Shown here one piece after another: positions 10,544 through 60,205 of a stretch of DNA of 64,000 nucleotides (within the stretch, counting starts at the first letter, position 1; each line of letters opens with the position of its first letter). A program made the translations under genes and the position numbers. The notes below the pieces were generated by a model that saw only the letters and a list, made by a program, of their open reading frames with translations, made no database searches and was not told where the DNA came from. The DNA is from Coptis chinensis (Eukaryota; Streptophyta; Magnoliopsida; Ranunculales; Ranunculaceae): the NCBI GenBank assembly GCA_015680905.1, contig CM027377.1:36170501-36234500 (forward strand), given 5' to 3'.

Positions 10544-13500
10544 TGTCACACCTCGAATTTCAACAGAATTCGGAAAAACAATATTTGTTCCGGACTCTTC
10601 GATTTTCGAGGTGTGACGCACTCTCAACTACCAAAAACCCATAAACAGTTTAAATATGCAGATAATTAAAAACCAATAAAAATTTTCAATTAAACAAAAG
10701 TCCTCTTCATTACAAAAATTCACAAATAAGATTAGGTTACAAATCTCTTTTCAATAACTCTTTATTTAAAATTACAAATGAAAATACAAATAACATTGTC
10801 TCAACTGAAAATCTATTTCACCTCAAGGGAAAACAAAACCTATCTTGAAAGGCGACGCTAACGCAAACCACAAGCAGCAACCAACCTTCTTCAACACTAA
10901 ACCTGTCAAGACTTATCAACTATGTTCATTTAATGAACACACCCGATATGCAAACATGCAAATCGGGTCAGCATTATAAAAATGTTGGTGTGAGTAGCTC
11001 TAAAATACAACATGTACGTATACATATACATACACAATCCATAAAGCAGTTAGTTCCTCCCCCGAGGCGCCTTAACTTTCAACAACTAATACGACATTCT
11101 TAACTACAATAAGTAAGGCAGATAGTTCCTCCACTGAGGCGCCTTAACTTCTCACTAACCACACAACAAACCATACGCATAATAAAAAGGCATTTAGTTC
11201 CTCCACGAGACGCCTTAGGTTCTAACTAACTAATAACCAGGTAAGCATATTCTATACTTACCGCATTTCATGCTCAATTACAGAGTGGGTCGTCTCTACA
11301 CAAGTAATTAGTTTGACCCACCCTTCTGCAAAACCATATACAATCATCTATCTAAAGATATATCATTAACCAACATATTACCATAATTACATTATTTAAG
11401 GTTTTCTTTGTATGTCCCTAAAATCACGTCGTATCTATGTCTTACCTAGTTTTCCTGGCTACGACAATCGTTTCCCAACGCCGAACATGTACATCCACAT
11501 GTCTCCTCTCACATAATGAACCACTCCGTGCGTAACTACCCCTGGCGGGATGCGCGCGACACCGGTAACCCTCACACGAAAGCCATTATGCAAGTACTGC
11601 TTCTATTCGGCATAAAATATCGCGCGTCTCGTTCTAATTTTGCGAACGGAATAATCAAGCCACCATTCGGCTACGCCAGAAGGGTCATTCAGCTTCACTG
11701 AAACGCCAGAAGGGCTAATCACATTACTTACGCCAGAAGGGCCATTCATATTCATTGAAATGCCCGAAGAGCCAATCATATCACATACGCCCATCACAAA
11801 GGCCAAATCACATGAGTTGTGGTAGTTAGGTTCTAGGATTTTCGTTACGTAATTTATTCAGGTGTCATACATTTATATCTCAGAATAATTCTTATTCTAT
11901 CTCATGCCAGTATACTTAATTGTACTGAAGCTCAACGTTTCTCGTTATAAAACAATCAACATTATCACGTGCCAATACTATTTATTGCACGATATCCAAG
12001 TATCTCTATATCAAATCTTTAAACTTATTATTTCACGTGCCAATCATATATTACACTACACCATATGGAATATCTCAAGCCTTCATACATACTACAATTC
12101 ATTTAAGTAGCAACTCATAATAGTAATCAATCATGTAATATATTCGTTCAATATTTTATGTGAACTCAATTCACCATCAAAGGCACGCATTATTTCCATT
12201 TGTGCACAATATAAATAGTATATAAATAATTAAAATATATGTCCATTCTACCACATAACGTCACAATAGCTCCAAATGTACCGCATAACATTTTTATAGC
12301 GGTTTAGGAATATTATGTCTTATAACATTTCAATCTCGTCACGTGTCAAAAATACACAACATCAACGTCAAATCTTTCTTAGATAATGACTGACCAATTA
12401 TACAGGCTTTCATTATATTCTATCATTGGACTTGTCCATACAATTTACAATATAAAACGTAGCACAATTCCACAATCGAAAGTCCACAATCAAAGCCCAA
12501 AACCCGAAAGTCCAAACATTTAAAGACCCAATTGGATCTATATTAAGTCCTATGGGCTGCCCCAAACAATATTAGAAACTGGCCCCAAACCATTAAGTGA
12601 TTCGGCCCAAAGAAAGCTAATAGGTTTCGGCCCAAGCCAACAAAAATGCAACTTAAACTGGCCCAAAACTTTAATTAGTTTGGCCCACAAAACTGAACCT
12701 AAACCGGCCCAAAGGAAACTAATAGAATTGGCCCAAACCAAACTGATTTAGTTTCGGCCCAACTAACAAAACCCAAAAGGCTTTGGCCCAAAGCCCAAGC
12801 CCAAACCGGTCATCTTCTCCCTCCAGCAGCCTCTTCCACCACCAGCCACCACCAGTTCCGATCACCACCCCTCCAAACATACTCGAAAATGATCAAGGGA
12901 AAAACCCCAACTACTTTAACAAAAGCGAAATCCCCAACTCATTATATCAATACCCTTCATCAAATCTAGATCTGGATTCGCCATTACCATTAAGCTTCAA
13001 AAGCCCCGCCACTCTACAAGTCTACAACACTCAACGATCAATTCTAATACAACCAAAACAACTACCCTATAAATTTGATCGAACCCTTCCTCCACAGCGT
13101 TGCCATTAACGCTCCTCCTGAGCTTCAGCCGCACCATTACAACCCACACACACACTACAATCAACTATGAACCCATCGATTTTTAATCTAGATAAAAGCA
13201 CTACAGCTCTAATTAAACTAAAAACAACCCAATCGAGTTTTCCCAAAACTCCCCCTCGACGCCATGGACGCCTTCTTCCACCTGCAACAGCACCCACCTA
13301 ATTAAACACCCCTTCAGCATACCCAACACTCAATCAACCCAACATTCACCCTTAATCAACCAACACAACAATATACAGAACAAACGTTGGTTTGGCTTGC
13401 GCCACCATTGACGCTCTTTCGAGCTTCAACAGTTCAAATTCCGATTTCAGAGTTCATCAGTTTAATAAAACTAAATAATATCGACAGAAATAATAAGTAG

Positions 13501-17025: not shown

Positions 17026-17942
17026 CAACAACAACAACAACAACAACTTCGTTTTAAGCATTAGCTTTTGGTGCATGAAAAGCAGGCAGTCTTATTCTAC
17101 ATGTAGTTCAAGTAATATCATAGATCGACAAAAAAAAAGTTAAATATCATTCTACTCTTATTCTTCAAATGCAGTGTGTTTATCCATATTTAAGGTAGTT
17201 AAACTTGCCAACTGTATGTGAAGATTACTTGTTTGATCCATCAATTTGTTGTGTTTTTTTTTTTTTAGAAAGGAAAAAATTGCATAATTGAAACCCCGCT
17301 CTCAAATTTTGTTCATTGGAATGTGTAGGTATGTTTCTCATTGTACTCTGGTCATCTAGACATAATTGAGTTGAAATTTGCATATGAGGTAAACATGATA
17401 GGAGCATCTACATGTTTTACATTTAAAAAGCTTTTAGAAAAACTTTAACCACTAAAAAAGGCAACTGCTAGATCAAAATATTTGCTTCGGAAAAATGAAC
17501 ATTTTAATCGCTTTTGGTCATGGTGTTTCCTATTTTTGAGACTGGAAATTGACAACCTTGTCTCATTTTGCAAAATTTTTCTGTCTCCTGATTCCTACTG
17601 TAAGTATAATATATTTTTCGTTCGCAACTATTTGTTTCGCTTGACGTGTGCAATTATTTGATATGATCATGCAAAAAAATGTTATTTCATTTTAGATGCA
17701 AACCGTCTTTACAAGTACAATGTTTGTGATTTGTCAATTTATGTCGGGTCTTATTTCTCACATTTGCTTAGTATAATTTGTTGAGTGTTATTTTAATCTC
17801 ATTATTCATTATATGTATAGCTTTTTGCTACAAACAGATTAAGGCTTCACAATAGAATATGACAAAGCTGGAGATTTCTAAAGGCCTGAAGCATAACTTA
17901 GTTTGGTATGGAATGAAGTATCAGAAGTGTTCATATGGTGTG
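16736..17942. other. AT-rich DNA with trinucleotide microsatellite
   Basis: Between 16981 and about 17047 lies an (ATA)n tract followed by an (AAC)n tract. The rest is AT-rich. The last 100 bases before the next insertion (17850-17942) are open on the plus strand and continue open on the far side (from 25563), so the gene-capturing element may have split a coding segment, but the peptide is not recognised. Confidence 0.5.
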
Positions 17943-18273
17943 TGTAGTAGCCATATTCAGGGATGTATCACATAGGTACTGGGCCAAGAGATAAGGCCCA
18001 GACCACAGTATTTGTTGAGCCCAGAGAAAAGCCCAAGACTAGACTAGGCCCCATGAGGTAAACCTAATAGAGGGATATAAAAAGGAAGAGAGAGGAGAGT
18101 AGAGTGGAAGAGGAAAAGAAGAGAGACATGGGGGGTGAGGAGAGAGGTGAACTACGGCGGCTTGATCCCGAAATGGGTACGTAGGCAACCAAATTGGTGC
18201 AGCCAATCTAAAATATAGAGTGAATGTGAGTAAAGTTAGAGATTGACGATTTCTTGGGAAAGAGGTTGTAACA
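17943..18273 (+). repeat. 5' LTR of the gene-capturing element
   Basis: It starts TGTAGTAGCC and ends GTTGTAACA. Compared by eye with 25226-25557 it differs at one base near 18068 (t/g) and in a small patch near 18251, which suggests recent insertion. It contains a TATAAAAAGG promoter-like box (about 18077) and the block GGGTACGTAGGCAACC (about 18175). Confidence 0.9.
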
Positions 18274-18275
18274 AA

Positions 18276-18290
18276 TGGCGCCTGTGGGGG
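18276..18290 (+). other. primer binding site
   Basis: TGGCGCCTGTGGGGG starts two bases after the 5' LTR. The first seven bases (TGGCGCC) match the complement of the 3' end of plant Asp-tRNA; beyond that the match is poor, so the primer identity is uncertain. Confidence 0.6.
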
Positions 18291-18839
18291 ATCGGTCTTT
18301 GGTTTGGGGTTTACTTTTCGCAGAGGTAAAGCTAAACACTTGGCGGTCCCCGAAAGTAGTAGTGAACGGAGGGATGGAGGCTCTTTGTTGAAAGCTCTTT
18401 TAAGGAGACCTAATTGAAGCCATGAATTTCGCGGAAATGGGTAGTGGGGTCCTTAAATCGATTATTGGACCCCAAGGATTCTTGAATAATTGAAGAGCAT
18501 CGGCCTAGGAGCTAGAACCTTGATTTGCATCTTCTCGATCGAGGCTGGGTCTTTTAGCAAGCGTGCATCCGACCAAACAAGATATCCCCATATATCTGCT
18601 TGAACCTAGATGTGGAAGGAAAAATCTTAAAAGTATTCATAGATTTAGAGTCTTAAGAGATTCTCTTAAAAGAAATGGGATTGGCCGAAGTTAAATCATA
18701 CACCGTGATACTGAGATGGTGGCGGTGAAGAGGCTCTGAGGAACTCGAGATCCGGTTTCGTGGAGATAGGGCTAATTAACGCGCGTCTTTGAGTCAATAT
18801 GGCGTAATGTATTTCGTGATATCTTGTTGTTGTTATCAG

Positions 18840-19206
18840 TCTTTGGTTTTGGGTGGACTTGGTACCGCCGGGCTCTTCATGATGCCTCCTTTAAGGGGTG
18901 CATCATGGTTGCATGGTGTCCGGGATGAGAATCTATTGGCTCTTTTGGTAGGAAGACTTGGATTGCCGCCAGATCGAACAAGTGGTGACAATTCGGTCTC
19001 AGATGACCATGATCCGAAAGCTATGCACTTTTCGATGTAGATGGAAAACAAGTTCCTCAAGATCTAGTTACAAAGATTGGTGAAGAGTGTGGGTTATGGC
19101 GTAGTGTGAGAGAGAGGGTGGTGATGAATGGAGGGCACCTATTCTTCTTTGAAGAAATGAAGATTGTGAAAGAGCTTCAAGATCGGTCAAAACTAAGAAG
19201 AGTATA
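18840..19206 (+). pseudogene. unidentified captured coding fragment
   Basis: An open stretch ([29 protein letters not shown]) ends at a stop near 19040. A second frame then opens ([20 protein letters not shown]..) and runs to a TAA at 19204-19206. Composition and codon use look gene-like, and it sits with other captured fragments, so it may be one frameshifted host gene piece. I do not recognise it. Confidence 0.35.
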
Positions 19207-19212
19207 AACTCG

Positions 19213-19290
19213 AGCGGTGGCAGGCCGTCGGTCCGCTTGTTTCCTTGCCTCAAGTCGGCACCTTTTGTACTACTTTCCTCAAGAGCACGG
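19213..19290 (+). pseudogene. auxin response factor N-terminal fragment
   Basis: A stretch reads GPLVSLPQVGT and, after a 1-base shift, LYYFPQEHGER. This corresponds to the conserved sequence just before the B3 DNA-binding domain of auxin response factors. In ARFs the Trp and Ala-Gly before it are conserved; here W and A are partly present (RWQAVGP). Only about 25 residues match and the flanks do not continue as ARF, so this is a very short relic. Confidence 0.45.
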
Positions 19291-20159
19291 TGAGCGGGAA
19301 TAACCGAAGTCTCACATCCGGACCAATTTAATGGTAGGAGAAGAGGAGAGGGTAGTTCGAGTAATTAAAGAAAGACGGTGGTGGGAAGCGAAAGGGTGTC
19401 GGTGAAGGCGAGGTTTTGTTGAAAGAGAGGTCATTTTGAATGTGTTTAGGAGCTTTGATCGACTATGGATTAGGCATTTATGGTTATGGATTAGGCTTTG
19501 ATATGAGGATGGTGCTAAAGAGTGTTGTTCTTTAAAGTATGGACAAACCGCCTTTGTTGTTATATATGGATTTGGTTTGGAGAGGGTCTAGCAAAGCGTA
19601 AGTAATGCGTAAGGTTTTCCTTATTGCGGCACCTGTATATCTCCTCCCGGAAGTACTAGCGGTGGTTCTATTGGTTCTACCTTCAGCGTAACTTTCTGGG
19701 AAACTAATTGGAGAATCTTTAATGCCGTGAATCGAGACATAAAATTTTGTTGGTCGTGGCCTCGGTGAAGGGATGGTTGATGCCAGGAGCACTCGGTTTC
19801 TCGGATTCTCATTCTTGCCATGAAGTTTAGTTTCAGATTTCTACTTCCAGATTATGCCGGGGGTGGGTGAACCGAAGGCTATATGGAAGCTTAAAAGAAT
19901 AGATTATGACTGGTTTCGGAATTATCGTTGCACTTGAGATGAGAACCCATAATAGTGTCAACTCGATATTCCTTCTTCAATATCTCATGAGCATATGATC
20001 AATGGGAAATCGCCTTCCACCACGTGCCCATCGGAGATCCGATAATGATGGAGTATGGTATGTCATTTGGGATGAGGGTTCCGTAATTTACATTGTTGTC
20101 GTTTGGTGGTGAATGGGTCGATCGTGGTGGTGGAGAGATGGGTAGAGAAGAGGGGGGAA
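19291..20159. other. captured or internal DNA, unidentified
   Basis: A broken stretch between the ARF-like patch and the Hsp70-like fragment. Open pieces on both strands (for example 19532-19821 minus) carry no motif I know. The peptide around 20110-20160 on the plus strand does not yet match the Hsp70 family. Confidence 0.4.
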
Positions 20160-20900
20160 AGGGTGTTATCCGATTTGAAGGGATTGCCGAGAAGAATTTG
20201 AATACCATTGTTGTGGATTGTGTTATTGGGATTCTGTTTATTTTACTGGATTTACAGAGGAGGGTGGTTATGGATGCGGCTACTATTGCCGGTTTGCATC
20301 CTTTGAGGTTGTTTCATGAGACTACGGCTACCGCTTTGGCGTATATGGGATTTATAAGACCGACACGGAGAATGATCGTGAATGTTGCATTTGGTGATGT
20401 TGGGCATGCTAGTATGCGAGTTTGTATTCTTTGGGGTTTAAGAAAGGGCGGTTGAAGGTTTTGGCTCATTCTTTTGATTCAAATCTTGGTGGTAGGGATT
20501 TTGATGAAGTGTTGTTCCAAAGATTTTGTGGGGAAGTTTAAGGGTGAGTATAAGATTGATGTCAACCGAATGCTCGAGCTTGTCTTAGACTTCCGAGATG
20601 CTTGTGAGAAGTTGAAGAAAATGTTGAGTGCAAATCCAGAGGCTCCTTTGAATATCGAGTGCTTGATGGATGAGAAAGATGTGAGGGGTTTCATCAAGAG
20701 GGATGAGTTTGAGGATATAAGCATTCCTATTCGAGCGTGTGAAGGTTAGTTGGAGAAGGCTATCGCAGATCTTTGGAAATTTGTGATGGAGAATATACAT
20801 TCAGGTTGAGGTGGTTGGTTCAGTTAGCGTGTTCCCCGCTATCATTAGGATGTTGACCGAAGTTTTTTGGGAAGGAACCGAGGCGGACTATGAATGCCAA
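20160..20900 (+). pseudogene. captured Hsp70-14/15 (Hsp110-like) fragment
   Basis: The plus strand encodes [71 protein letters not shown] and DVRGFIKRDEFE. These match in order the nucleotide-binding domain of the plant Hsp110-type proteins Hsp70-14/15, cytosolic nucleotide-exchange chaperones. The match starts near residue 120 of the family, and runs to about GKEPRRTMNA (20868-20900), with several frameshifts and stops (for example after 20455 and 20749). No introns interrupt it, although the plant genes are, to my knowledge, intron-rich; this favours cDNA capture. It joins directly to the PPR fragment. Confidence 0.75.
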
Positions 20901-20904
20901 AAGT

Positions 20905-21868
20905 GTGTTCTTGGGATTGCGAGATGGTGTTTCGTGGAATTTGTTAGTTTCGGTATTGTCGGATGGGGTTCCATGGAAAGGCGATGGAAGTGTTTCACGA
21001 TTCTAGAGTTCCGATGTAACGTTGGATAAGTTTTCTTTGGCGCGGCGTATTGGGTGTATGTGCTCAAATGCGGGATGTTAAGTTAGGAGAAATAGTACAT
21101 GGATTAATTTTTGTTAGTGGATTGAGTGTACACGAATTTTTAGTTAATTCACTTATTGATATGTACTCAAAATGTGGTAAGGTCGATAATGCTAGACTTG
21201 TGTTTGAAAGTTAGGATAATGTAGATGATGTTTCTTGGAACTTCGGTGATTTCGCATATGTTAGAAGTGGGTTTAGCGAAAAGAACATTAGGAGTTTTGG
21301 TGAAAATGCACAAGTCCGGATTGAAGTTGAATTGTTTTTAGCTAGGTAGTGTCCGAAAGGCATGCTCGTGATGCTTTAGTGGTTCAGGGAATTTGGAAGA
21401 GTTGCTCACGGTTGTGCCAGGTCAAACTTATTTTGGATTTTGATGTTGTTGTAGGGACGTGATTACTTGACATGTATGCGAAAAATGGTGGTCGGAGAAT
21501 GCAATCAAGATTTTTAAGCTCATGCCCGATCGAAATGTTGTCATGTTTACCGCAATGATCATTTGGATTTTCCCAGTCGTAAACCTGAAGTGTCGAAGAA
21601 TATGCAGATGAAGTCTTTGCATCTCTTTTCTCAAATGCGAAAAGAGGGAATTAAGCCCTCACAGGTTTACATTCTCAAATATAGTTTCGTGGACATCACC
21701 GATGGCGGGTTGTGTTCGAAACTCATAGTTTGAGTAGCATGGAGTCTCTTTAGCTTAACTTCGGGTATCCGGAAGAAAGCAGCTAATTCACTATGTCTTG
21801 TGCTTTGAGTGCTTGTGCAAACTTAGCTGCTTCAAGATTAGGTGAGCAGATACAAGGTGGATGTGGGC
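20905..21868 (+). pseudogene. captured PLS-class PPR protein fragment
   Basis: Typical PPR phrases occur in order: DGVSWN, LGEIVHGLIFVSGL (frame-shifted start), VNSLIDMYSKCGKVDNARLVFES, DMYAKN, IKIFKLMPDRNVVMFTAMI, LHLFSQMRKEGIKPS and [18 protein letters not shown]. These are the P, L and S repeats of an organelle-targeted RNA-binding PPR protein. From memory the order resembles Arabidopsis At3g13880. Frames change at least five times and stops are frequent, so no protein could be made. It starts where the Hsp70-like piece ends and stops where the helicase begins. Confidence 0.75.
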
Positions 21869-23689
21869 GATGCTTGTAATCAGGAGTATAGGATTCCAGA
21901 ATCGTATGATGATATACACAGTGGGAATGTGGACCAGGAGAAAAGGTTTTCTGCGGCTTTACAGCGATACAGGGAAAACCACAGCTCTAGTTCTAATGTA
22001 CGTGATTCGTGGGAAAATAATCGGCTAGCAAAAGGGATGATGGAATTTGGTTCAGAAAAGAATCAAGTATTTGGTAGTAGTTATCAGTATGTGTTTGAAG
22101 AAGACCCGATTGAGTTTGTCAAGGCATGTGTGGATAATGAAGAATTGTTCAGTAAGCCAGAATCACCCTACGCTGTCAAGGAGAAGGAGGTACAGAAACT
22201 TCATGATGACAGGAAAGATCTTCCTATTTATCGGTTACGAGAAGACTTACTCCAGGTAGTGGGTGACCACCAGGTTCTTATAATTGTGGGGAAACCTGGC
22301 GGGGAAAACTACTCGATTCCCCAAGATATCTACATGAAGTCGGGTTACACAAAACATGGAAAGATTGGATGTACTCAGCCACGCCGTGTTGCAGGGATGA
22401 GCGTTGCTGCTCGGGTTTCGCAAGAAATGGGTGTGAAGGTTGGTCACGAGGTTGGTTACTCGGTTCGGTTTGAAGATTGCACATTATCAGAAAAGACAGT
22501 TGTGAAGTATATGACAGACAGAATGCTACTGCGAGAATTTCTTGGTGAGCCTGATTTAAGAAGTTACAGCGTGCTCATGGTGGATGAGGCTCATGAGAGA
22601 ACACTTTCAACTGATATTCTATTTGGTCTTGTTAAGGACATAACATGCCACCAGAGTGATCTAAAGCTTCTTATTTCCAGCACCTACTTTGACTGGGCTC
22701 CTATTTTTAGAATTCCAGGGAGGAGATTTCCAGTTGTCTCATACTTCACAACAGCGCCGGAAGCAAATTACTTGGATGCAGTAATAGTCACAATTCTCAA
22801 AATTCATGTGACTGAACCGAAAGGCGACATTCTTGTATTCTTTACGGGACAGGAGGAGATTGAAACTGCCGAAGAGATTTTGAAGCATAGGACAAGGGGA
22901 CTAGGAACAAAGATCGCTGAGCTCATAATATGCCCTATCTATGCCAACTTGCCAACAGATCTTCAGAACAAAATCTTTGAACCCACAGGAAGGGGCCGGA
23001 AAGTGGTCCGGCAACAAACATAGCGTAAAACATCCTTGACCATCGACGGAATAACATATGTTGTGGATACAGGATTCAGAAGATGAAGTCCTACGACCCA
23101 AGAAAGGTATGCGATCCTTACTTGTCACTCCTATCTCAAAAGCCTCAAAGAACGCAGAGGCTTTGGTCAGCTGACGCGTCTGAGTCGAGGAAAGTGTTAT
23201 CACTTGTACACGCAAGATACTTATCATAATGAGTTGGAAGAAAATACACAGCCTGAAATTCAAAGGACTGACCTAGCAAGTGTCGTGCTCATTCTGAAGA
23301 GCATGGGTATTGAGGACGTGAGGAGTTTTGATTTTATGGACCCACCAGCGGATGAAGGATTGTGTCAAGCATTGGAGTTGCTCTTTGCTCTCAATGCACT
23401 TAATAAAAAGGGAGAGCTTACTAAGCTCGGGAGGAGGATGGCTGAGTTTCCACTTGATCCAATGCTCTCCAAAACGATTGTCGCATCAGAAAAGTACAGA
23501 TGTACTGAAGAAATCCTCTCAATTGCTGCTATGTTGTCCGTTGGCAACTCTATATTTTACCTCCCGAAGGACAAAAAGGTCCATGCTGATAAAACAAGGA
23601 TGAGTTTCCATACTGGAAATGTCGGAGACCATATTGCGTTACTTAACGTCTACAATTCGTGGGAAGAGATAGAGATAAGCTGCCTTTAA
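21869..23689 (+). pseudogene. captured DEAH-box splicing helicase fragment
   Basis: A 393-codon ORF (from 21842) plus a second ORF (23204-23689) encode about 600 residues of a DEAH RNA helicase of the plant DEAH1/PRP2-like group, an ATPase that remodels the spliceosome. Visible: [20 protein letters not shown] (motif Ia), [17 protein letters not shown] (motif II), [19 protein letters not shown] (motif IV), and after the break [16 protein letters not shown] and [12 protein letters not shown] (ratchet/winged-helix region). Motif I is destroyed: GETGSGKT is GKPGGENY here. The SAT motif III region is deleted. Motifs V/VI (about 23020-23200) are frameshifted. It cannot bind ATP normally. N- and C-termini are missing, and no introns are seen. 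Confidence 0.85.
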
Positions 23690-25211
23690 GCCAAAGAGCG
23701 GGGGGGATGAGCTTTCCGCGGACCCTTTTGTCCCGAATCAAACGTGGGGGAGAATTTGAATTTTGGGATGTGCATTCCGGGAGAGAAGCAGAGGGTTCGA
23801 GAAGACCGCCGTGGATATGTCGTGGGACTATCCGAAGGAGTCGGGGGGATGAGCCCTCCGCGGACCCTCGTGTCCAAACAAATGGCGTGTGGGGGTGCGG
23901 ATCCCGAACCCGGCGACAACCAGTCGAGCCCGCTGAGTGGGATGAGCCCTCCACGGATCGAGGAGATGCTAGAGATACATGGGGCAATGAGAGAGAGCCC
24001 AGCGAGAGCCGAAGAAGCGAGCCCCAGCGGGCGGGATGAACCCCGCGGACGAGGAGATGCTAGAGATACATGAGGCAACGAGAGAGCCCCAACAAGCGAG
24101 AGCTCGAGCAAGCCCGTGAGTGGGAGGAGCCACTGCGGGACAAAAGGCAAGAGGCAGGCCCGGTGTCAAAAGAGAGTAGCCCCAGAGCTTGGTTGGCAGG
24201 CTCCGGAGCAAGAGATATCGCGGACATGAGATCCCGAACAACTGGGGGATGAGCCTCCGCGGACATGAGATCCGAAGTCAAACACAGGGGCAAGCAAAGT
24301 TACCCCTCATCGACTCCCTCGGAGGCGTGAGAGAGGGGGATGAGCCCCTGCATGGACATGAGATCCGAAGTCAAACACAGGGAGCAAGTTGAGTAAGCCC
24401 CTCATCCGATTCTCCATTCCGGAGAGAGGATGGCCGGGGGGATGAGCCCTACGGAGATGAGATCAATCGGACTTGGGGCGAGAGCGAGTGGCCCTCAATA
24501 GACTCCACTTCGAGTAGAGATAGTGGGGGGGGGGGATGAGCCTTCCGCGCGCCGGAGTTTTAGAAGGAACAATACTATTGAATTCTACAAAAGAGAAATA
24601 GAGGGGAGGAGGCCCTTTGCAGACGGTATATCGAATTCCATGAGTAAGTGCAAGGGGGATGAGACCCTTGGCGGATACAATGTGGAGTCCTACGAAAGGG
24701 AAATGAAAGGGTGAGACACTCCGCGGACATGATATAGATTTCTATGAAGGAGAGCTTATGGTACGGGGGAGGAGACCTCCGAACATTGTAGTGAAGTTAT
24801 GAGAAGGAGAAATGCGAGGGGCAGAGACAATCCGCGGACATAGTGGTGAGTTCTCGGAAAGAGAGGTCGGCCGAGGTGAGACACTCGCGTGGGCGTAGTA
24901 GTGAGTTCTATGAAGGAGAGCTTATGGTAGGGGTTGAGAGACACATTGTGGGCATCAGATCGAGTTGAAGCGGAGAGAGCGAAGGGGATGAGATCCTTTG
25001 GGGATACGTTAATGGGGTATATGAACAAGAACCCGATGGATTGAGTACTTCACGCGGACATACGGTCGATGAGCGAGTACATGATACGAAATGTCCTAAG
25101 GAGGAGAAAACTACGTACAGTCACAAGATACGGTGGATATCTAGAGTTCAAAGAGAGAGACAAGAAAGTTGGAGGACTTCTCGGGTCCACCGTCGTCATC
25201 GCCGCCAAACC
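23690..25211 (+). repeat. degenerate G-rich repeat block of the capturing element
   Basis: About fifteen imperfect units share the core GGGGATGAGCC..CCGCGGACATGAGAT at irregular spacing of roughly 50-100 bases (for example 23701, 23848, 24246, 24334, 24438, 24530, 24653, 24717, 24822, 24984). GA-rich composition makes several long overlapping ORFs on both strands that look artefactual. It fills the space between the captured helicase and the polypurine tract and may be the element's own 3' region. Confidence 0.65.
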
Positions 25212-25225
25212 CGAGAGGGGGCAAA
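25212..25225 (+). other. polypurine tract
   Basis: CGAGAGGGGGCAAA directly abuts the 3' LTR, as expected for the plus-strand priming site of an LTR retroelement. Confidence 0.75.
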
Positions 25226-25557
25226 TGTAGTAGCCATATTCAGGGATGTATCACATAGGTACTGGGCCAAGAGATAAGGCCCAGACCACAGTATTTGTTG
25301 AGCCCAGAGAAAAGCCCAAGACTAGACTAGGCCCCATGAGGTAAACCTAAGAGAGGGATATAAAAAGGAAGAGAGAGGAGAGTAGAGTGGAAGAGGAAAA
25401 GAAGAGAGACATGGGGGGTGAGGAGAGAGGTGAACTACGGCGGCTTGATCCCGAAATGGGTACGTAGGCAACCAAATTGGTGCAGCCAATCTAAAATATA
25501 GAGTGAATGTGAGTAAAGTTAGAGATTGACGAGATTTGCGGGAAAGAGGTTGTAACA
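25226..25557 (+). repeat. 3' LTR of the gene-capturing element
   Basis: It starts TGTAGTAGCC and ends GTTGTAACA, followed by the TSD gtgtg. It is nearly identical to 17943-18273. Confidence 0.9.
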
Positions 25558-26287
25558 GTGTGAAGTGTCAAATTGTTTCTTCGGACCATTTCTTTTCCCA
25601 CCAACACAAGAGAGCAGCCTAGTCATTATTTTAAATGCCAAAAAAAAATTGTTCAAGTACTAGGTCTCATGTAGTTTAGTCTCGTAATTTGCTCCTTTTT
25701 GAAGATTACTTAAGTACGGAGCATTTGAAACAAACTTAGTGGAATGCATTTGAAGTCTAAGTTATGAATCTAACTTATGGTGGTGATGCTCATACTCTTT
25801 GCAATATGGAAGGAAATCTCACTTTTTAAAAGCCTATTTGTGTTCATGACATACTAACATATGTCTGTTTATGTGCTGCAAATATTATAGGATTGTGTTT
25901 CTTTAATTTATAAATAAGATGAGTTCGCCTGGTGAAAGCAAGATCAACTTCACCATGTGCTAGCTGAGTAACTTTTCATAGAACTTTGTTCTGACCATTT
26001 AGAATGGGAGCCAAAGACTTGGAATGTTGTACTACTGTGTGAAGGTTAGTTCGACACTTAGATTCCCAAGTTACTAGTGAAGTTTCAATAGATGTTATAT
26101 ATCTAACAAAACTTTACACAAAAACGAATTTGAGCAAGAAAACTAAATTGGTTACTTATCTTTACATCATAGTAACGAGGGAACCTTAAATTGTTGTTTA
26201 AAGATATGGAGACCATAAATAGGATCAACTTTGAGAATGATAAATACAAGGTGTATACAATCATGTCTGACATCATGTCAAGATAGT
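25558..26287. other. pre-insertion DNA between two elements
   Basis: AT-rich DNA that was contiguous with the sequence before 17943 until the gene-capturing element inserted. It also ends in atagt, the left TSD of the giant element. No gene is recognised. Confidence 0.5.
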
Positions 26288-27843
26288 TGATAAGCACCCA
26301 AAATGTAACACTAAACCCAGTAGAGAGACGGTGTTTTGGTTAATTATGTGTTTAATGATCATGAAATAATTATATTTTCATACTTTTGCGAGGGTTTTCG
26401 CAGTTAATGTGAATATGATGATAAAACATGCATCAAAGCACGGAATCGTGCATACTTTCGAAGTTTTCTCATTCAAGTCCAAGTGAAGCCAACATAGCCC
26501 CGACTAGAGCCGAAGATTTCAAAGGACAAAACCGGTCTTGAGAGCGGGTCCGTGTGTAAAAAAGCAACAAACTTTGAAACTCACATCTTTCAAACACGGA
26601 CGCCGAAGTTAGGAAAGTGAAGCGCCAAAAGCACTGAGTATGACGAGCTCTACAAAAAAGATAGAAAGTTGTAAAAATGCCGAATTGGGACCGCCATTGG
26701 ATACAATGGACCCACTCTGGCCGTAAGGCATGACGAAGTAAGATATAAGCGGTGGTGATGATGGTCACTTATGTGTGACATCTTGCACATAAGAAAAGAC
26801 AAAAGAAAGAAATACAAACTAGAAAAAGACAAGCTTTGTTAAAAGGTTTTGGATTTTTCTAGAAACATAAAAAGACAAAAAGAAATTAAATGGGAAGATT
26901 TCACGTGAAGGGGCCATATATATATGGATATGGGGGCTGGAGACTAGAGACTTTAGTTTTAGCTTTTCATTTCCTGTTTTCATTTCCAGTACGTTGTCTT
27001 GCTTCCAGTAGCTTTCATACCAGCATCAGTATTGTAAGTCTTTTTACTTAATAAAAGTCAGTTTTTTTTCAGTTAAATTCCTGTTCTTTAATTACTTAGT
27101 ATATACAATAAGATTAATCTATCCATCATGACCATGTGCTAAAATCCTCCCTAGGGGGAGGGTTAATGACGCTCATATTCCGATCCGGATTGACACTTTA
27201 ATGTTCAAGAATCACTACTTAGGAATTAGGTGTAAATTATGCATCCGGTCCCAAAATGATTGAGACTATCCAAGTTTAGATCCGATGCTTTCTATGGTGT
27301 CGATAACTCTCTAATTTGTCCAGTTGATGTAAAATCGACCAGATTTGAAATTATATTCCAAATATGGAATATTAGTTCAACTCCTTATCTTGAAATGAGA
27401 TAAGCTCGAGAGATCGTGCATCTCACTAGAGATTAATACTTCGACGCCGTCTTGGGTTTTGTCTATGAACTCAAGACGGATTAAAACTAATAGTGATATG
27501 GAATCAGAATCGTTGAAATTGATTCTTGCATGAGTGCGGTTAACCCTTCTCATATATCTTTATCCCCTGTTTATTTTACGTAGAAATCATCGTTATTATT
27601 TTTCGTTACTTGCATTGTCGTTAATTTCTCTAAACCTAAAGAAATAACCTAAAATCCTACTCACTAAAATTTGTAAATCCGGTTGTGAACCTTGTCTAGC
27701 CCCTAAAGTATAGGCGATCCCTTACTTGACCTATCCCTACCAACCGACGCGTGAGTAAGGTAACTTGACTAAATGGGCGTTTACGGACTTTGGACTTCGG
27801 ACTTAGGACTTAAAAGAATCAAACCCTAAATTCTTGTTTATCA
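26288..27843 (+). repeat. 5' LTR of the giant element
   Basis: It shares with 56024-61152 the start TGATAAGCACCCAAAA, the block 'ggagactagagactttag', a TTAATAAAAGTC polyadenylation-like region, 'ccctccctaggggg'-type purine blocks, and the end TTTATCA. Length is 1556 bases. No primer binding site follows it; an inverted LTR fragment lies there instead. Confidence 0.8.
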
Positions 27844-29900: not shown

Positions 29901-32900
29901 AGCGGTTAGGTCTTCATGAATTAAAACCTACCAACATGACCACTGACTCGCGGATTACTCCATCAAATACCTAAAGGGCATAGAAAACGCCCTAATAAAG
30001 GTCAAGATTTTTACTACCCCGATTGATTTTGCCATTCTAGAACCGAAGTTGTAGCGCCATATTTAAAATACATATTTATTTATTTATTTAAAATTCACTA
30101 GATTGGATTTGGGATATGTGGGCCTTATTTCTGGGCCCGAGTCTGTGTTGGGCTTAGGATTCAAACCTAAGTATATATTCATATTTTTTTTTAGAGAATA
30201 GGGTGGAGAGATGAAAATAAAATAAAAAAAAAAATGGCGCTTTGATTGCTAGAGTGTTAGAAGCGACAATTCGGACGATGAGGGATTCGTCGAGTTTTAA
30301 TACAGGTGAGTAGATTAGTTTTCTATTTCACGTCTAAATTTATTGTTTAGCCGCTAATGTTTTCGGCTCATTCTTCTGTCATTATTATCTGTCCGGTCTA
30401 TGTTAAACACTTGTTAAATTGTCGTGGTTAAAACTCGAAAATCGACATTGGTATCGAAGCTTGAAGTTGTTAATGGCGTATGAAGCCCCACAAAAAGATT
30501 TCGGCGTGTTTCGTTTAAACTCTTTTTTGTTTGTGGTTTTGAAACTCTAAACTTAAAGTCATTTGAAGCTTTAAAAGGCGTTAATGGCGTCGCCTATCAG
30601 GACCTTTTCATTTGAACCCCTTGTCTTTATGATTTTTACTTTGTGGATTTGAGGTTGGTTATTGATATTGGGTGTGATTTGTGAAGCTCATACCGTTCAT
30701 CAATGGTGTCTTCGCGATTTGGTGGAGGGTGAGTGATCGGTGGCGGTGCTTGTTGGGTGGTATGGGAAGAGTGTGGGTTTTGATATTGGTTGTTGGTGTA
30801 TGGGTAAAGTGTGTTGATGATTTGGTGGTGGAGAAAGGGTGATGTCGAAGCTTTGAATCCGACGTTAATGGCGGCGAGAAATTTCCAGATCTAGCGTTGG
30901 TTGAAGAATTTTGAATTTAAGAATTGAGGTTTTTCCTTTTGTGAAAGTTGTAGGGGTTTTGTTTTGGGTGATTTCGATTGGGTTCACCGGGTAGTGGTTG
31001 TATAGGGGTTGGTGTTGGTGGTTTGGTGGAGAAGAAATCGGAGGGAGAAGATGACGGTGAGTGTCATCCAGTACTCCCGCGTGCATGGTAATTGAGTTAT
31101 GTTCGGATACCTTAGTTGGACCGAACCAACTGATGGTTTTGGAGGGCGGTGGTGGAGAAGAAGGGTGGTGAGGTGAGGGAAGATGACCTCTTTAGTTGGG
31201 CATTTACCGGCCTAACATTAGTTTGTTGGTTGGTAGGAACTAAGTTAGTTTTGTGCGGGCCCGGTTTAGTTTAAGTTGTTTTGGGGCCAAAGCTAATTAG
31301 TTTTCCTTGGGATGAAATCTATTTGTTTTGAAATGGGACTAAATTAGTTTATTTTGTGTTGGGGGCGGTTTCATTTTAGTAGTTTGTGGGCTAACCAATT
31401 AAAGTTTTGGGCGGTTTAAGTTTCATTTTTTGTTGGCTTGGGCCGAAACCAATTAGCTTTCTTTGGGCCAGTTTCAAGTTTGTTTTGGGACCGGTCCATA
31501 TAACTTAAAATAGATCCAATGGGGTCTTTAAATATTTAGACTTTTGGGTTTTGGTTTTGGGCTTTGATTGTGGATGTGGGATCATTTTAATTGTACTCAC
31601 GTTTTATGTTGTAAATTGTATGGACAAATCAAATGCTAAAATGTTGTGGAAGCTTGTATAAATTTGGTTGTCATTATCTAAGAAAGATTTGACATTGATA
31701 TTGTGTATATTTTGACACGTAACGAGATAGAAACTTTAGGAGATATAATATTCTTAAAACGCTTATAAAAATGTTATGTGATACATTTGAAGCAATTGTG
31801 ACATTATATAATATGTTGGGATATATATATTAAATGCAATAGTTTTGGAGAAATAAATGTATAAATGCTCCATTATTTTTATCGTGAGATGCTACTAGGA
31901 GGTAGTAGAGTATTTGTGGATATTTCCCCATTCGGATCGCGTAGGCGTAGTGCAATAATATATTGCACGTGAAAAATGAAAGTGGTTATGAGATATATTG
32001 AGATATTTCCAAATATGGTGGCTTAGTGCAACAATTTATTTGGCACGTGATAGAGTGAAATGGTTATGAGACATGAAGGTATGATTTTGAATAAATTACG
32101 AATGAAAATCCTAGAACCTAGCTACCACAACTCATGTGATTTGGCCCTTGTGATGGTATGTGATCTGATTGGCCGCCGGGCATTTTGATGAATCTGAATG
32201 GCCCCTTCCGGGCGTAAGTAATGTGATTGGCCCCTTACGGCATTTCGGTGAAATTTGAATGGCCCTTCCGGTGTAGCCGAATGGTGGCTTGATTATTCCG
32301 TTCGCAAAATTAGAATGAGATCGCTTGGCGATATTTTATGCCGTATAATGGCGGTACTCACATAATGGCTTTTCGTGTGAGGGTTACCTAGTGTGTGGCA
32401 TCCCATTTAGTTAGTTCACATGCGGAGTGGTTCATTATGTGAGGGAGGCATGTGGATGTACATGTTCGGCGTTGGGAAGCGATTGTGGTAGCTAGGGAAA
32501 CTAGGTAAAACATAGATACGACGTGATTTTAGGGACACGCAAAGAAAGCCTTAATTAATATAATTATGGTAATATGCTGATTAATGATATATCTTTAAAT
32601 AGATGATGATATATAGTTTTGCAGAAGGGTGGGTCAAACTAATTACTTGTGCAGAGACGACCCACTCTGTAATTGAGCATGAAATGTGGTAAGTATAGAA
32701 TATGCTTGGCTGGTTATTAGTTTAGTTAGAACACAAGGCGCCTCGTGGAGAAACTAAATGCCTTTTTATTATGCGTATGGTTTGTTGTGTGGTTAGTGGG
32801 AAGTTAAGGCACCTCAGTGGAGGAACTACCTGCCTTACTTATTGTAGTTAAGAATGTCATATTAGTTGTTGGAAGTTAAGGCGCCTCGGGGGAGGAACTA

Positions 32901-33540
32901 ACTGCCTTATGGATTGTGTATGTATATGTATAAGTATATGTTGTATTTTAGGGATACTCACACCAGTATTGTTTATAATGTTGACCCGATTTGCATGTTT
33001 GCTTATCGAGTGTGTTCATTAAATAAACATAGTTGATAAGTCTTGACAGGTTTAGTGTTGAAGAAGGTTGGTTGCTGCTTGTGGTTTGCGTTAGCGTCGC
33101 ATTTCATGATAGGCTTTGTTTTCCCTGGAGGTGAAATAGCTTTTCAGTTTAGACAATGTTTTTGTATTTTCATTTGTAATTTTAATTAAAGAGTTATTGA
33201 AAGGAGATTTGTAACCTAATCATATTTGTGAATTTTTGTAATGAAGAGGACTTTTGGTTTAGTAAAAATTTTATTGGTTTTAATTATCCGTATTTAAAGA
33301 TTTAAATGATTATGGATTTTGGGAGTTGAGAGTCGTCACACCTCAAAAATCGAAGAGTCGAGAACAAATATTGTTTTTCTGAATGCGAAATCAGGGGTGT
33401 GATGAAGTTGCTTGTGACTCCATTCCTATCATTTTAGGGCGTCTATTTCTTGCAATCTGCTAACACTCTCATCAATTGTCGGGATGGTTCAATGACAATG
33501 TCTTTTCGGGAACCTTTATGTAGAAGTAAATGTGTTCAAC
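29790..33540 (+). pseudogene. retroviral-type aspartic protease, split by a solo LTR
   Basis: MRLGDKVYRAS leads to a protease whose active site should read D-L/T-G; here the frame around 29855 gives LTRPGVNLLP, so the catalytic Asp is lost. The downstream half (RLGLHELKPTNMT, then DFAILEP) stops at 30049, where the 3.35-kb LTR enters. It resumes at 33409 with CDSIPIILGR and NTLINCRDGSM, the flap-to-C-terminal part of the family. Several frameshifts are present. Confidence 0.75.
30050..33403 (+). mobile_element. 3.35-kb solo LTR, copy 2, inside protease
   Basis: It starts TGTAGCGCC and ends GGTGTGAT, between perfect 5-bp duplications gaagt (30045-30049 and 33404-33408). Full-length match, inverted relative to it, with 10544-13886: GGGCCCGAG block, 'gggatttcgtcgag', 'ggccgaaac' block, 'aaggcgcctcg'/'ggaggaact' repeats (32735-32900), and the end 'cacacctcaaaaatcgaagagtcg'. 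No internal element genes. The protease frame on both sides shows the exact insertion point. Confidence 0.9.
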
Positions 33541-35914: not shown

Positions 35915-37449
35915 TGACACTCTAGCTCCTTTTGTGTTTAGATGGTATATGGATGATGTAGATGGATGATGGTCGTTGAACAAAAAGAAGCATTATCAAA
36001 AGCTAATTATCCCTCAATAAGTAAAAAGGATGAGTAGGTATCATTCCACTTTTAAATGTAAGAAGGACGAGGAATTTGGAAAGGGGCTTGAGGGATTAAA
36101 ACTATGATTGTAGAGATTTTAGATTCTAATGCTAAACTAAACTAAACTATTGAGAATTTATAAGAGAGGAATTCAAGAGATTAGAATCCACCAATAATTT
36201 TGACCTATGACCTTCTACTTCATGGTTGTTCTTACAATTAGACTACAATTAGGCAATCGAGCAAGTGCTGATGCCCTCTTGGACGAATATTTATGCTATT
36301 AATATCTTCTTTCCTTTTATGTAAGCTCGGGCATCCATTCAATGTATTACCAAGAGCAACATCAAGGAATATTTCCTAATAGGTGCCATTCAATGAATCA
36401 CCACTTAAGGCAAAACACAAAGAATACTTCCCTAGGCTGACCACTCCCGGCGGTCCTTCTAAAGCAACACAAAGAATATTTTCCTAACTCTAAAGAACTA
36501 TACTACTAGAAGAAAAGTAAAGAACACTAGCATGATATTAATATTGCAAAGCATAAACCCTATTCTATACTTCCATTCCCTGGTGTGGACAATAGAACTA
36601 ATAACTAAAAACATAAAGAACTAACCTGATTGAAGAACACCATGAACCAGAAGAATCATTAAATCTTAAGCACCGGCTTCATCTCCTCCCTTGAAAGAGA
36701 AGATTAGACTTCCATAAAGAAGGAAGAACATGAAGAACGAGAAGAAGAAGAGTCGAAGAATATAAAACTAGAAAGACTAATTTATTAAGACTCGGCTAGT
36801 TAAAACCGAATCTTTTATTATTAATCTCTCTCTGCCTCAAGTTCTGGAGACAAGAATATAAGTGAATTGACAAATTACATGAGGCACTTAGGTCCTCTAT
36901 TTATAGTGGTTACAATGAGTTCTAAAAGCATTCCAAACCGCTAATTGTTTTCTAATACAAATCAACTTCTTTCAGAGTCTAACTTCGTCTCCAAAACTGA
37001 GAAGGAAGTGGCTACAGTGTCATTTCATGCATTTGGATGCACGATTCACCTCTGATGCGAGCAATACATCTGGATGCACGATCCATGCGTCCCAGACGCA
37101 GAAGTCTATTTTCTTTTTTTTTGCTCTATCCTTCTATCCTCTTTTGCGGGCTTTGGTCCAAGCAACGAATCCTTTTGCCTTGGGCTTCCAAATAGGCTTT
37201 AAAATAGGTCCAAGTCGCATCTTTAATAGCTTCAATTCCTTGGCCTTCTCCATGATTGTCCACGGGCTTCCCATGTGATCCTTAATGCTCTGAATTGCTC
37301 CGTTTTATCCATTTTTCTCTAATATTCCACAAAACTCTCTCTTTCACCTTTAGAATCATAAAACATAACTTACAAACACAATTAGTCTACTAAGATGGAT
37401 AAACAAGAGGCATAATTGAAGGTTAAATTACACTTTTTGAGCACTTATC
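35915..37449 (-). mobile_element. 1.5-kb solo LTR inside integrase
   Basis: On the plus strand it starts TGACACTCTAGC and ends GCACTTATC. It matches the two LTRs at 40744-42408 and 48016-49683 along its length (ccctcaataagtaaa, ctaaactaaact, ggaagaacatgaagaacgag, catgcgtcccagacg blocks). Flanking atggg (35910-35914) and atgga (37450-37454) are a 4/5 TSD within the integrase codons that encode VTMDYVSKW. Read on the minus strand it starts (T)GATAAGTGC. Its retroelement family is that of the gag-protease element below. Confidence 0.85.
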
Positions 37450-38283
37450 ATGGACTATGTGTCCAAATAGATTGAGGCACTCGCATGTCGCTCCAATGAC
37501 CATAAGACTGTCGTGAAATTTGTGAAAGAGAGCATTTTCTCTCGTTTTGGTGTTCCCAAAGCTATCATCAGTGATGGGGGTACACATTTTTGTAATAAAT
37601 TTTTTGGGTTTTTAATGAAGAAATATGGAATTACTCACAAAGTTGCTACTCCATATCACCCACAAATGAGTGGCCAAGTGGAAGTCTCCAACAGAAAGAT
37701 AAAGTCCATTCTGGAGAAAACTGTCAATCCCTTAAGAAAAGACTGGTCTCTCTGGTTATCAGATACCTTGTGGGCATACCGAACGACATTTAAGACACCT
37801 ATAAGGATGTCTCCTTACCGCATCGTTTTTGGAAAACCTTGTCATCTACCAGTTGAACTTGAGCATCGTGCCCTATGGGCCATCAAAAGCCTCAATTACA
37901 ATATCAATGCGGTAGGCGATAAACGAAAACTGCAATTAAATGAGCTTGAGGAGATTCGGAGTGATGCTTATGATCTCTCAAAATCTTATAAAGCTAATAT
38001 GAAAAAAGTACACAACAAGCACATTTTGCATAAAGATTTCAAAATGGTCCAAAAAGTTTTACTTTACAACTCCATATTACACATTTTTCCTGGTAAATTG
38101 AAAACACGGTGGTCTGGTCCTTTCATTGTGTCAATTGTGACCCATTATAGGGCAATCTCTTTGCTTAATCCACAAGATAACAGCGAATTTCATGTAAATG
38201 GACAACACCTCAAACATTACCACGAGTTATGCTCCCCAACTGTTGAACAAACTCTTCTTCAGGATCCGGTCTACATAGATTAG
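37450..38283 (+). pseudogene. integrase catalytic core and C-terminus
   Basis: A clean 256-codon ORF (37513-38283) plus the start [17 protein letters not shown] just before it. DDE-type residues are visible: the second Asp in [15 protein letters not shown] and the Glu in [21 protein letters not shown]-like C-terminal part ([10 protein letters not shown]) and the tail [20 protein letters not shown] are typical of Athila/Tat gypsy integrases, which insert element DNA into the chromosome. Of all pol domains here it is the best preserved; the first catalytic Asp would lie across the solo LTR. Confidence 0.9.
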
Positions 38284-40743: not shown

Positions 40744-42408
40744 TGACACTGCCTCTTTTTGTGTGTGTAGATGAGATGATGGGTGATGTAGATAGATGAT
40801 GATCGTTAAACAAATAGAAGCGTATCAAAATCTAATTATCCCTCAATAAGTAAAGGATGAGTAGGGTATCGTTCCACTTTTTAAGTGTATGTTTATATGA
40901 AGGGAGGAATTTGGAAAGGGGTTTGAGGGATTAAAACTATAATTGTAGAGATTTTAGATTCTAATGCTAAACTAAACTAAACTAACTAAACTTATACTAA
41001 AGCTAAGAATTGGAAATAAGGAGAGAATATGAGAGAGATAGATTCAAGAGATTCAAATCCACCAATGCTTTTGATTCAATGACTTTTTGCTTCATGTTGT
41101 TCTCCAAGTAGACTACAATCGGGCAATCGAGCGAGTGCCGATGCCTTTTTGGGTGAAACATCGTTAAACAATTAACTCTACTTAAGGTTGTTCCTATGTT
41201 CATATTACTAGTATCTCTTTCCTTTTATGTGAGCTTGGGCAGCTATTCAATGAATCACCATCTAAGGCAAACACAAGGAATGATTCCCTTACTTTAAAAC
41301 ACTACACAATTAGAAGAAAAGTAGAGAATAATAGTATAATATTCAATTACAATAAATAAAACTCTATTCTAGCATTATATTCAATTGCAATAAATAAAAG
41401 CATGTTACTAGCAAATATTCAATTGCAATAAATAAAACCCTAAACTAGCATGATATTCAATTGTAATAAATAAAACCTTAATCTATACTTCCATCCCAGT
41501 GTGTGGGCAATGGAACTAATAACTAAAACATAAAGAACTAACTGATTGAAGAACACCATAAACCGGAAGAATCATTAAACCTTAAGCACGGCTTCATCTC
41601 CTCCCTTGAAGGAGAAGATTAGCCTTCCATAAAGAAGGAAGAACACGAAGAGCGAGAAGAAGAAGAGTCGAAGAATATAAGACTAGAAAGACTAATTTAT
41701 TAAGACTCGACTAGTTAAAACCGATCTTTTATTATTAATCTCTCTCAAGTCAAGTTAAGGAGACAAGAATATAAGTGAATTGGCAAATTACATGAGGCAC
41801 TTAGGTCCTCTATTTATAGGGGTTACAATGAGCTCTAGAAGCATTCCAAACCGTCATTTGTTTCCTAATACAAATAGACTTCTTCGAGTCCGACTTCGTC
41901 TTCAAAGCGAGAAGGAATTGGCTCTGATTGTCGATTCATGCGCTGGACGCATTATTCATGCGTCCCAGACTTAATCAATGCGTCTGGACGCTTTGATTTA
42001 TCGCCCCGGATGCACTTCAATCGCGTCCCGGGCCTTTCGATACATGCATCCCAGACGCATAAGCCGATTTTCTCTCTTCTGCTCTATCCTTCTATCCTCT
42101 TTTGCGGGCTTTGGTCCAAACAACGAATCATTTGGCCTTGGGCTTCCAAATAGACTTTAAAATAGGTCCAAGTTGCATCTTTAACAGCTCCAATTCCTTG
42201 GCCTTCTCCATGATTGTCCAAGGGCCTCCCATGTGATCCTTAATGCTCCGAATTGCTTCGTTTTACCCCATTTTCTCTAATATTCTACAAAACTCTCTTT
42301 TTCACATGTAGAATCTTAAAACACAACTTATAAACACTATTAGTCCACTAAGATGGCTAAACAAGAGGCATAATCGAGGGTTAAATAGCACTTTTTGAGC
42401 ACTTATCA
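40744..42408 (-). repeat. 3' LTR of the gag-protease element
   Basis: On the minus strand it starts TGATAAGTGC and ends AGTGTCA. It is nearly collinear with 48016-49683, including the 'ttcaattgcaataaataaaa' repeats (about four units, 41340-41475) and the cg-rich 'catgcgtcccagac' block (41935-42060). Confidence 0.9.
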
Positions 42409-43286: not shown

Positions 43287-43320
<34 letters not shown>

Positions 43321-45480: not shown

Positions 45481-45543
45481 ACTTCACGGATCTTTGAGCT
45501 TATTTGGAGCTTGGCGATGGATAATAGATGTTGTTTGTCCAAG

Positions 45544-46254: not shown

Positions 46255-46439
46255 AATTTCTCCTAGGATCGAGGCAATAACTCTCCACTTGTATTGGAAT
46301 TTTGTTGAGAGTATAATTGTTGTTGAGGGACCAACTATGAAACTTGACTTCTCGTGGAATATAACTTTGATCTTGAGAACCTAGGGGTCCGGCGATTACG
46401 TCTCAATAATTACCTTGAAAGTTATTACCACCTTGGTTG

Positions 46440-47998: not shown

Positions 47999-48013
47999 AC
48001 GGCAGCGGCGCCA
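47999..48013 (-). other. primer binding site, Asp-tRNA type
   Basis: On the minus strand TGGCGCCGCTGCCG lies two bases after the 5' LTR. From memory it differs at one position from the complement of the plant Asp-tRNA 3' end (TGGCGCCGTTGCCG). Athila elements use Asp-tRNA, which fits the gag type. Confidence 0.75.
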
Positions 48014-48015
48014 TT

Positions 48016-56670: not shown

Positions 56671-60205
<3,535 letters not shown>

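Follow-up and report, generated by a model that had tools for sequence, protein, structure and literature searches.

The 64,000-bp window analysed here (Coptis chinensis C1:36170501-36234500, in a 935.6-Mb assembly) contains a long terminal repeat (LTR) element of 7615 bp (window 17943-25557, + strand) whose interior carries pieces of four host genes, namely an amine oxidase, an Hsp70, a pentatricopeptide repeat (PPR) protein, and a DEAH helicase. Comparison with its sister copies makes it very probable that the element belongs to a non-autonomous LTR family that captures pieces of spliced mRNAs and reshuffles them between its members by template switching, and that the mosaic was built stepwise. 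The steps of its building can be read from sister copies within the same genome that carry one, two, three, or different genes.

Sister copies and the assembly of the mosaic

The Hsp70-14/15-like, PPR, and DEAH pieces lie head to tail on the + strand, as an earlier note on this DNA had claimed, and Pfam matches, PDB matches, and codon alignments agree on their identities. The frameshifted Hsp70-14/15-like fragment (Hsp110 class; 20163..20919) corresponds to residues ~121-366 of the Ranunculus Hsp70-14/15 protein P0123, with 203/255 codons identical in a frameshift-tolerant alignment and Pfam HSP70 matches in two open reading frames (ORFs; 20087-20455, 3.2e-14; 20456-20749, 1.2e-9). The PPR fragment (20920..21858) aligns to the C. 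chinensis protein P0121 (DYW type; 229/255 codons identical, 13 frameshift steps, 6 stops) and gives a weak Pfam PPR match in 21020-21214 (8.2e-5, under Pfam's cut-off). The DEAH fragment (DHX16/DEAH1-like; 21860..23669) has DHX16 as its best PDB match (21842-23023, 9.6e-113) and a Pfam HA2 match in ORF 23087-23689, and shares 375/508 codons with the Ranunculus DEAH protein P0011 in a frameshift-tolerant alignment. Its Walker A motif is garbled in the window copy and intact in L026 and L033. The Pfam scan of the window covered 10 chosen ORFs of the element region.

The 24 family loci read (the window, L009-L016, L017/18, L019-L026, L030-L033, L035, and L037) were picked by their likeness to the window element, and fractions among them are not genome frequencies. 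Host cargo was recognised in 17 of them (the window, L014, L015, L016, L019, L021-L026, L030-L033, L035, and L037), with at least two host genes in eight (the window, L016, L022, L023, L026, L033, L035, and L037). The cargo represents nine kinds of genes: amine oxidase, Hsp70, PPR, DEAH, 4-alpha-glucanotransferase, Agenet, C2, DUF1295, and Ca-ATPase type IIB; the PPR motif of L015, weak at 21.3 bits against a cut-off of 25, was left out of the count. Among the best 40 of 47 candidates scored in a search with window 20100-21900, Hsp70 occurs without PPR at several loci (20909 being the window position where most such matches stop), three loci have PPR without Hsp70, and one, C4:93054914-93056852, combines Hsp70 with PPR but lacks DEAH. 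The Hsp70 pieces of L030, L031, and L032 comprise residues ~120 to 616-620, while L022 and L023 hold Hsp70 residues 120 to 418-419 and, after them, a piece of 4-alpha-glucanotransferase (downstream of Hsp70, the PDB search with L022 returned SSE1 only). L021 carries PPR residues 1-526, with a piece of residues 596-637 inverted upstream.

The two-gene locus L035 (C4:93051400-93058000), which holds Hsp70 and PPR pieces and no DEAH, links both one-gene types: its positions 95-1963 follow the Hsp70-only L031 (93.1%), and positions 1964-4078 follow the PPR-only L021 (92.8%). The entry from the leader into Hsp70 is the same as in the Hsp70-only copies, and the exit from PPR is identical in L021 and L035 (position 3202 of L027, where the PPR gene P0121 lies on C4), and the same backbone follows it in both. 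The Hsp70-PPR join of L035 recurs in L033 and is recognisable in the window and L026. Because the Hsp70-only copies extend past this join and L021 has PPR sequence upstream of it, neither can derive from L035; both one-gene types therefore precede the two-gene type.

The DEAH piece was found at four loci among the best 40 of 362 candidates scored in a search with window 21700-23900: the window, C3:12581636 (96%), C2:69773921 (94%), and C2:87038424 (93%). The DEAH-bearing loci read are the window, L033, L026, and L037; all four lie between LTRs of the window element's family, and the PPR-DEAH join is common to all of them. About 177 bp of PPR sequence are gone near 21679-21682 in the window and also in L026 and L033; the stretch is kept in L021, L027, L028 (a second copy of the PPR gene locus, on a 315-kb contig), and L035, and the whole region is missing from L037, where a deletion removed the latter portion of Hsp70 together with almost the entire PPR piece. 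A DEAH piece in an element without PPR was not seen among the best-scored matches of the cargo searches. The LTRs of L026 are identical (336/336), indicating a very recent move of this copy.

The joins are abrupt. The transition from Hsp70 to PPR, placed by the earlier note at about 20900, lies at 20919|20920, and that from PPR to DEAH, placed at about 21868, lies at about 21855-21860, the exact point not being resolvable. Short stretches common to both sides mark other junctions: ATGG between leader and Hsp70 (gene side deduced from residues M-V of P0123), GACAAG between Hsp70 and backbone in L030 and L031 (gene side deduced from D-K of P0123; L032 reads differently at this exit), TCAAGCT between PPR and backbone (both parents read), and TGGGAAGAG between DEAH and the 3' part (DEAH side deduced from W-E-E in the related P0247 and P0321).

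The earlier note had also pointed to missing introns, which holds for the PPR and DEAH pieces; for Hsp70, the comparison was with a distant paralog only. L021 and L035 lack exactly the 213-bp intron that interrupts the PPR gene (L027, L028) and has GT-AG ends. The closest DEAH gene (C1:11429900-11438900) yields eleven separate tblastn blocks (at least 10 exons) for residues 286-907, whereas L033 carries this span uninterrupted. When the DNA is compared, six of the gene's blocks, separated by 116, 1391, 516, 74, and 558 bp, abut in the element, which has 47 unmatched bases at the last of these five gaps and reads through a further exon border. The absence of introns from both pieces indicates that spliced mRNA was their source. 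Between the DEAH piece of L033 and the C1 gene, dS is 1.68 and dN 0.178 (321 codons, one exon), which traces the piece to a different paralog, one under selection. The Hsp70 paralog used in the intron comparison (L038, C9:72979500-72985500; introns after residues ~391 and 467) was rejected as a source gene because of its identity of ~67%, and so was L029, a broken copy that is ~79-83% like other copies.

The window copy is itself a mosaic of family members, as judged from a comparison of its 250-bp chunks with 13 loci. Its LTR ends are nearest to those of L009 (95.6%, first 250 bp), whereas L026 and L033 are only 81.3% and 82.1% like the window in the first LTR chunk. The leader (18193-19942) is nearest to L022 and L023; from 18693 onward, L022 is its only relative among these loci, joined by L024 in two chunks. 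Between 21943 and 23692, the chunks most resemble L026, L033, and L037, at up to 99.6% identity. Since the DEAH cargo of L026 and L033 is 95.8% and 97.5% identical to that of the window, either the window copy exchanged its ends once its cargo was in place, or that cargo passed into another member.

With proteins supplied in trans by an autonomous element, the mosaic would have arisen as follows. A piece of an Hsp70 mRNA (residues ~120-620) would have replaced a stretch of backbone (~450 bp when L020 is taken as the plain form, ~210 bp when L017/18 is taken instead), and a piece of a PPR mRNA would have entered another backbone separately. A non-homologous switch between an Hsp70-carrying and a PPR-carrying RNA would then have produced the Hsp70+PPR type represented by L035. 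The loss of ~177 bp of PPR and the joining of a DEAH piece between PPR and the 3' part would have yielded the type seen in the window, L026, L033, and L037. The window copy would finally have swapped ends with other members, gaining an L022-like leader with the amine oxidase piece and L009-like LTRs. The switches probably happened during reverse transcription, and the DEAH step probably preceded the exchange of ends. The serial template switching during reverse transcription proposed by the earlier note thus remains the best reading, although not as a single pass, because Hsp70-only and PPR-only sisters and an L035 without DEAH display separate steps.

Template switching weighed against other routes

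A number of observations weigh against reshuffling between members. L021 has a base unlike that of either PPR gene at 36 sites, of which only 3-10 show the base of L021 in the four Hsp70+PPR copies, and at 13 sites where these four copies agree against both PPR genes, L021 matches 3, which rules out L021 as the direct PPR donor, so that a sister PPR element has to be assumed. The PPR pieces of L033, L026, and the window are closer to the gene L027 (96.9, 96.1, and 92.8%) than to the element L021 (93.4, 93.3, and 91.5%), so the origin of their PPR from an element rests on the join that they have in common with L035. The Hsp70-PPR join lacks microhomology or overlap in the sequences compared, and the stretches read of L035, L030, L031, and L032 held the left LTR only. 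Exact target-site duplications (TSDs) flank the window element and L026, and L033 has none. Among the 40 candidates scored for each, no source gene of Hsp70 or DEAH was found; beside element-like and broken copies, the closest loci reach 67% and 75% identity, respectively. In the window copy, small indels occur in clusters that L033 lacks, and part of them may be assembly errors within a repeat, although the structure is independent of them; the C. chinensis genome is PacBio-based and was polished with Quiver and Pilon, according to the cited passages of PMC8166882.

An element RNA could alternatively have taken up Hsp70, PPR, and DEAH mRNAs directly one after another, without recombination between gene-carrying sisters. 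Such serial capture would equally explain intronless PPR and DEAH pieces and a single orientation of all cargo, and it would agree with the greater proximity of the PPR pieces to gene L027 than to element L021; the DEAH piece, unseen in PPR-free elements among the best-scored matches, may indeed come directly from an mRNA. However, intermediates exist: L035 combines the PPR-to-backbone exit of L021 with the leader entry of the Hsp70-only copies, so that direct capture is disfavoured for the Hsp70-PPR step and unlikely as an account of the whole mosaic. A capture at the DNA level, in which gene DNA entered by illegitimate recombination or repair and mosaics formed by ectopic recombination or gene conversion, would be compatible with the junction microhomologies, which also fit end joining, and could account for the exchange of the window's ends with L009-like and L022-like members by gene conversion. 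It is nevertheless very improbable, because the intronless PPR and DEAH pieces identify RNA as the source and because the exact 5-bp TSDs at 14 of the 17 loci tested (none in L017/18, L019, and L033) indicate that whole mosaics moved as units.

The cargo might also be a functional chimaeric gene under selection, as proposed for maize Bs1. L033 retains two open frames, an Hsp70-PPR fusion of 267 codons and a DEAH frame of 588 codons, and three of the loci bear protein-gene annotations: IFM89_031646 (P0240), named RNA helicase, is encoded by the window element (several pieces match at 100%), and IFM89_007041 and IFM89_024714 correspond to L026 and L023. By contrast, the four DEAH copies found (the window, L026, L033, and L037) have all lost the region of helicase motif III, and the window copy is frameshifted. 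The divergence between copies looks near-neutral, with no sign of constraint after capture: dN/dS is 0.0196/0.0164 = 1.19 for L033-L026, 0.0227/0.0331 = 0.68 for L033-window, and 0.0423/0.0474 = 0.89 for L026-window, a weak test because the counts are small. On this sequence evidence, a selected function seems extremely improbable; the cargo is most likely a passenger, and the three annotated C. chinensis genes are models on transposon cargo.

Architecture of the window element and its family

The window element is a young LTR insertion and structurally complete, as the earlier note had stated. The 5' LTR (17943..18273) and the 3' LTR (25226..25557) are identical at 328/329 aligned bases, with 5 additional gap columns in the alignment, and are flanked by exact copies of the TSD GTGTG (17938..17942 and 25558..25562). 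Their divergence (K = 0.0030) corresponds to an insertion age of ~0.1 million years at a rate of 1.3e-8, as used in the cited part of PMC5664825. A sequence resembling a primer-binding site (PBS), TGGCGCCTGTGGGGGATC (18276..18293, +), which starts with TGGCGCC, is replaced in many sister copies by TGGCGCCGTCTGTGGGGA. This putative PBS resembles that of the Tat lineage of Ty3/gypsy, a candidate for the autonomous partner. A polypurine-tract-like GAGAGGGGGCAAA (25213..25225, +) directly precedes the 3' LTR.

Between the LTRs, the parts follow on the + strand in the order leader with amine oxidase, own leader, Hsp70, PPR, DEAH, and GA-rich 3' part. The extra leader segment with the amine oxidase piece (18397..19905) is common to L022 (84-94% per 250-bp chunk) and partly to L023 and L024. 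It is followed by the family's own leader (19906..20162, +), which ends at the capture site GGAAATGG and occurs also in members without Hsp70 (L020, L017). The family's own 3' part (23660..25212, +) consists of GA-rich degenerate repeats and overlaps the DEAH piece by the 9-nt microhomology noted above; its start matches at least 31 loci beyond the four DEAH-bearing ones.

The coding piece that the earlier note had left unidentified does exist and can now be assigned to a flavin amine oxidase (about 18815-19108, start approximate, +) by homology to L024. Window 18894-19108 is 86% identical to L024 1945-2161, and the PF01593 match of L024 (9.7e-9) spans ~1870-2085 and overlaps the homologous stretch. 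The PDB search with L024 gave weak amine oxidase matches (best 0.0017) beside CHFR matches (0.0043), and L022 matches amine oxidase in Pfam at E 0.21; the leader frames of the window gave no Pfam match for amine oxidase, so that the identity was reached via the sister L024. The piece is presumably polyamine-oxidase-like, to go by a likeness of motifs. For the ARF-like patch, also claimed earlier, a Pfam scan of 18278-20170 in its three + frames gave nothing at E values up to 5, which argues only weakly for its absence because the same scan missed the amine oxidase piece as well.

The family is a non-autonomous, LARD-like LTR retrotransposon with paired LTRs, TSDs, and PBS- and polypurine-tract-like sites, and without gag or pol where scanned. 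The earlier claim that the element lacks retroviral genes agrees with the absence of Pfam gag or pol domains from the 10 chosen ORFs and the three + leader frames of the window. Retroviral Pfam domains were likewise absent from the interiors of L009, L012-L016, L019, L020, and L024, most of L022, and L017 861-10000 (element + strand). Neither outcome that the earlier note had named as refuting its claim was seen in the loci read: copies that lack the joins do exist, but the Pfam scans made detected no pol in them, and each of the four DEAH-bearing loci found is enclosed by family LTRs. A pol-bearing autonomous partner was not met, although no search aimed at one was made; L017/L018 was considered as such a partner and dismissed, as the + frames of the L017 part hold no Pfam domain.

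In the LTR query, the best 40 of 758 first-look candidates were scored. An LTR pair was seen in 19 of the 24 loci and a left LTR only in four (L030, L031, L032, and L035); L025 has no pair of its own. Host cargo was not recognised in seven loci (L009-L013, L017/18, and L020), among which the Pfam scans covered L009, L012, L013, L020, and the L017 part of L017/18. L010 and L011 resemble L012, which has no Pfam match; the three have a common 2.8-kb interior (93-95%), ~2.4 kb of which occurs in no other compared member and is possibly another captured sequence. L017/L018 (C5:65733300-65750300) is a 16-kb member with ~10.4 kb extra inside, and its L017 part is without a Pfam match. In a second multi-gene mosaic, L016 (C3:7420900-7428500), a DUF1295 match and an N-terminal Ca-ATPase match share a frame, with three residues between them.

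Known capture systems and neighbouring repeats

Gene capture by LTR elements is already known from maize Bs1, whereas a shuffling family with surviving intermediates is a new form of it; no report of an LTR family that reshuffles host fragments between its members was found in searches of the open-licence PMC literature. According to the cited passages of PMC13317346, Bs1 carries pieces of three genes, for a plasma membrane proton ATPase, a xylan endohydrolase, and a beta-1,3-glucanase. Like the window element, it is an LTR element with several host gene pieces; unlike Bs1, the Coptis elements form a family with at least nine kinds of genes, members with one to four of them, an extant recombinant intermediate, and no pol in the scans made. 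The maize B73 survey of Baucom et al. (2009; PMC2774510) reports, in its cited part, 425 intact LTR elements that contain fragments of host genes and, under its own conditions, no LTR retrotransposon with fragments of more than one standard nuclear gene. The eight multi-gene loci among the 24 picked here by likeness differ in this respect. Survey passages list 672 LTR-captured genes for rice and 1343 for sorghum.

In pepper, too, non-autonomous LTR elements took up and amplified spliced mRNAs, with mention of two or three genes in a single element (PMC5664825); however, the captured genes are NLR genes, and the cited passages describe no reshuffling of fragments between sister elements. Pack-MULEs and Helitrons are further families whose members carry, and fuse, fragments of many host genes (PMC13317346), but they are DNA transposons, whereas the Coptis family is RNA-mediated, intronless where tested, and bounded by LTRs and 5-bp TSDs. 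Veju and BARE-2 are chimaeric LTR elements that the same passages ascribe to switching between packaged RNAs, but they gained unknown sequence or sequence of other elements, whereas the Coptis family exchanges host cargo. Parts of PMC8166882 give the share of LTR retrotransposons in the C. chinensis genome as 49.84% and that of Tat in the gypsy group as 53.02%.

So far, arguments about how LTR elements acquire host genes have mostly started from end products, Bs1 among them. The coexistence of members with one to four genes and members without a recognised gene, with readable joins, makes the order and the chemistry of the steps testable, including which mRNAs are taken, where the switches fall, and how often cargo is exchanged. 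Tentatively, and with rather less than even confidence, the family may be regarded as a standing system for shuffling genes, comparable to Pack-MULEs but based on RNA. Its RNAs would be unusually prone to co-packaging with host mRNAs and would offer preferred acceptor points such as GGAAATGG at the leader's end; repeated template switching between gene-carrying members would then create, sort, and spread new combinations of exons from unrelated genes.

Other repeats lie in and beyond the window. In the left flank of L026 (469-1336), ORFs resemble window ORFs 52141-52593 and 53871-54287 by eye and apparently belong to another repeat family. A second LTR-like element (window 40918-48749) has direct repeats (40918-41475 and 48191-48749) that are 97-98% alike and contains minus-strand ORFs (44362-47169) with a gag/protease look, by eye; within 36069-38283, another copy of this repeat is followed by a + ORF (37471-38283) with an integrase look, by eye. 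Direct copies at 26933-27702 and 60205-61015 are ~95% alike and 33 kb apart, and the stretch 10670-12685 is inverted relative to 30066-33281 and 58587-59915, with 72-95% likeness in pieces.

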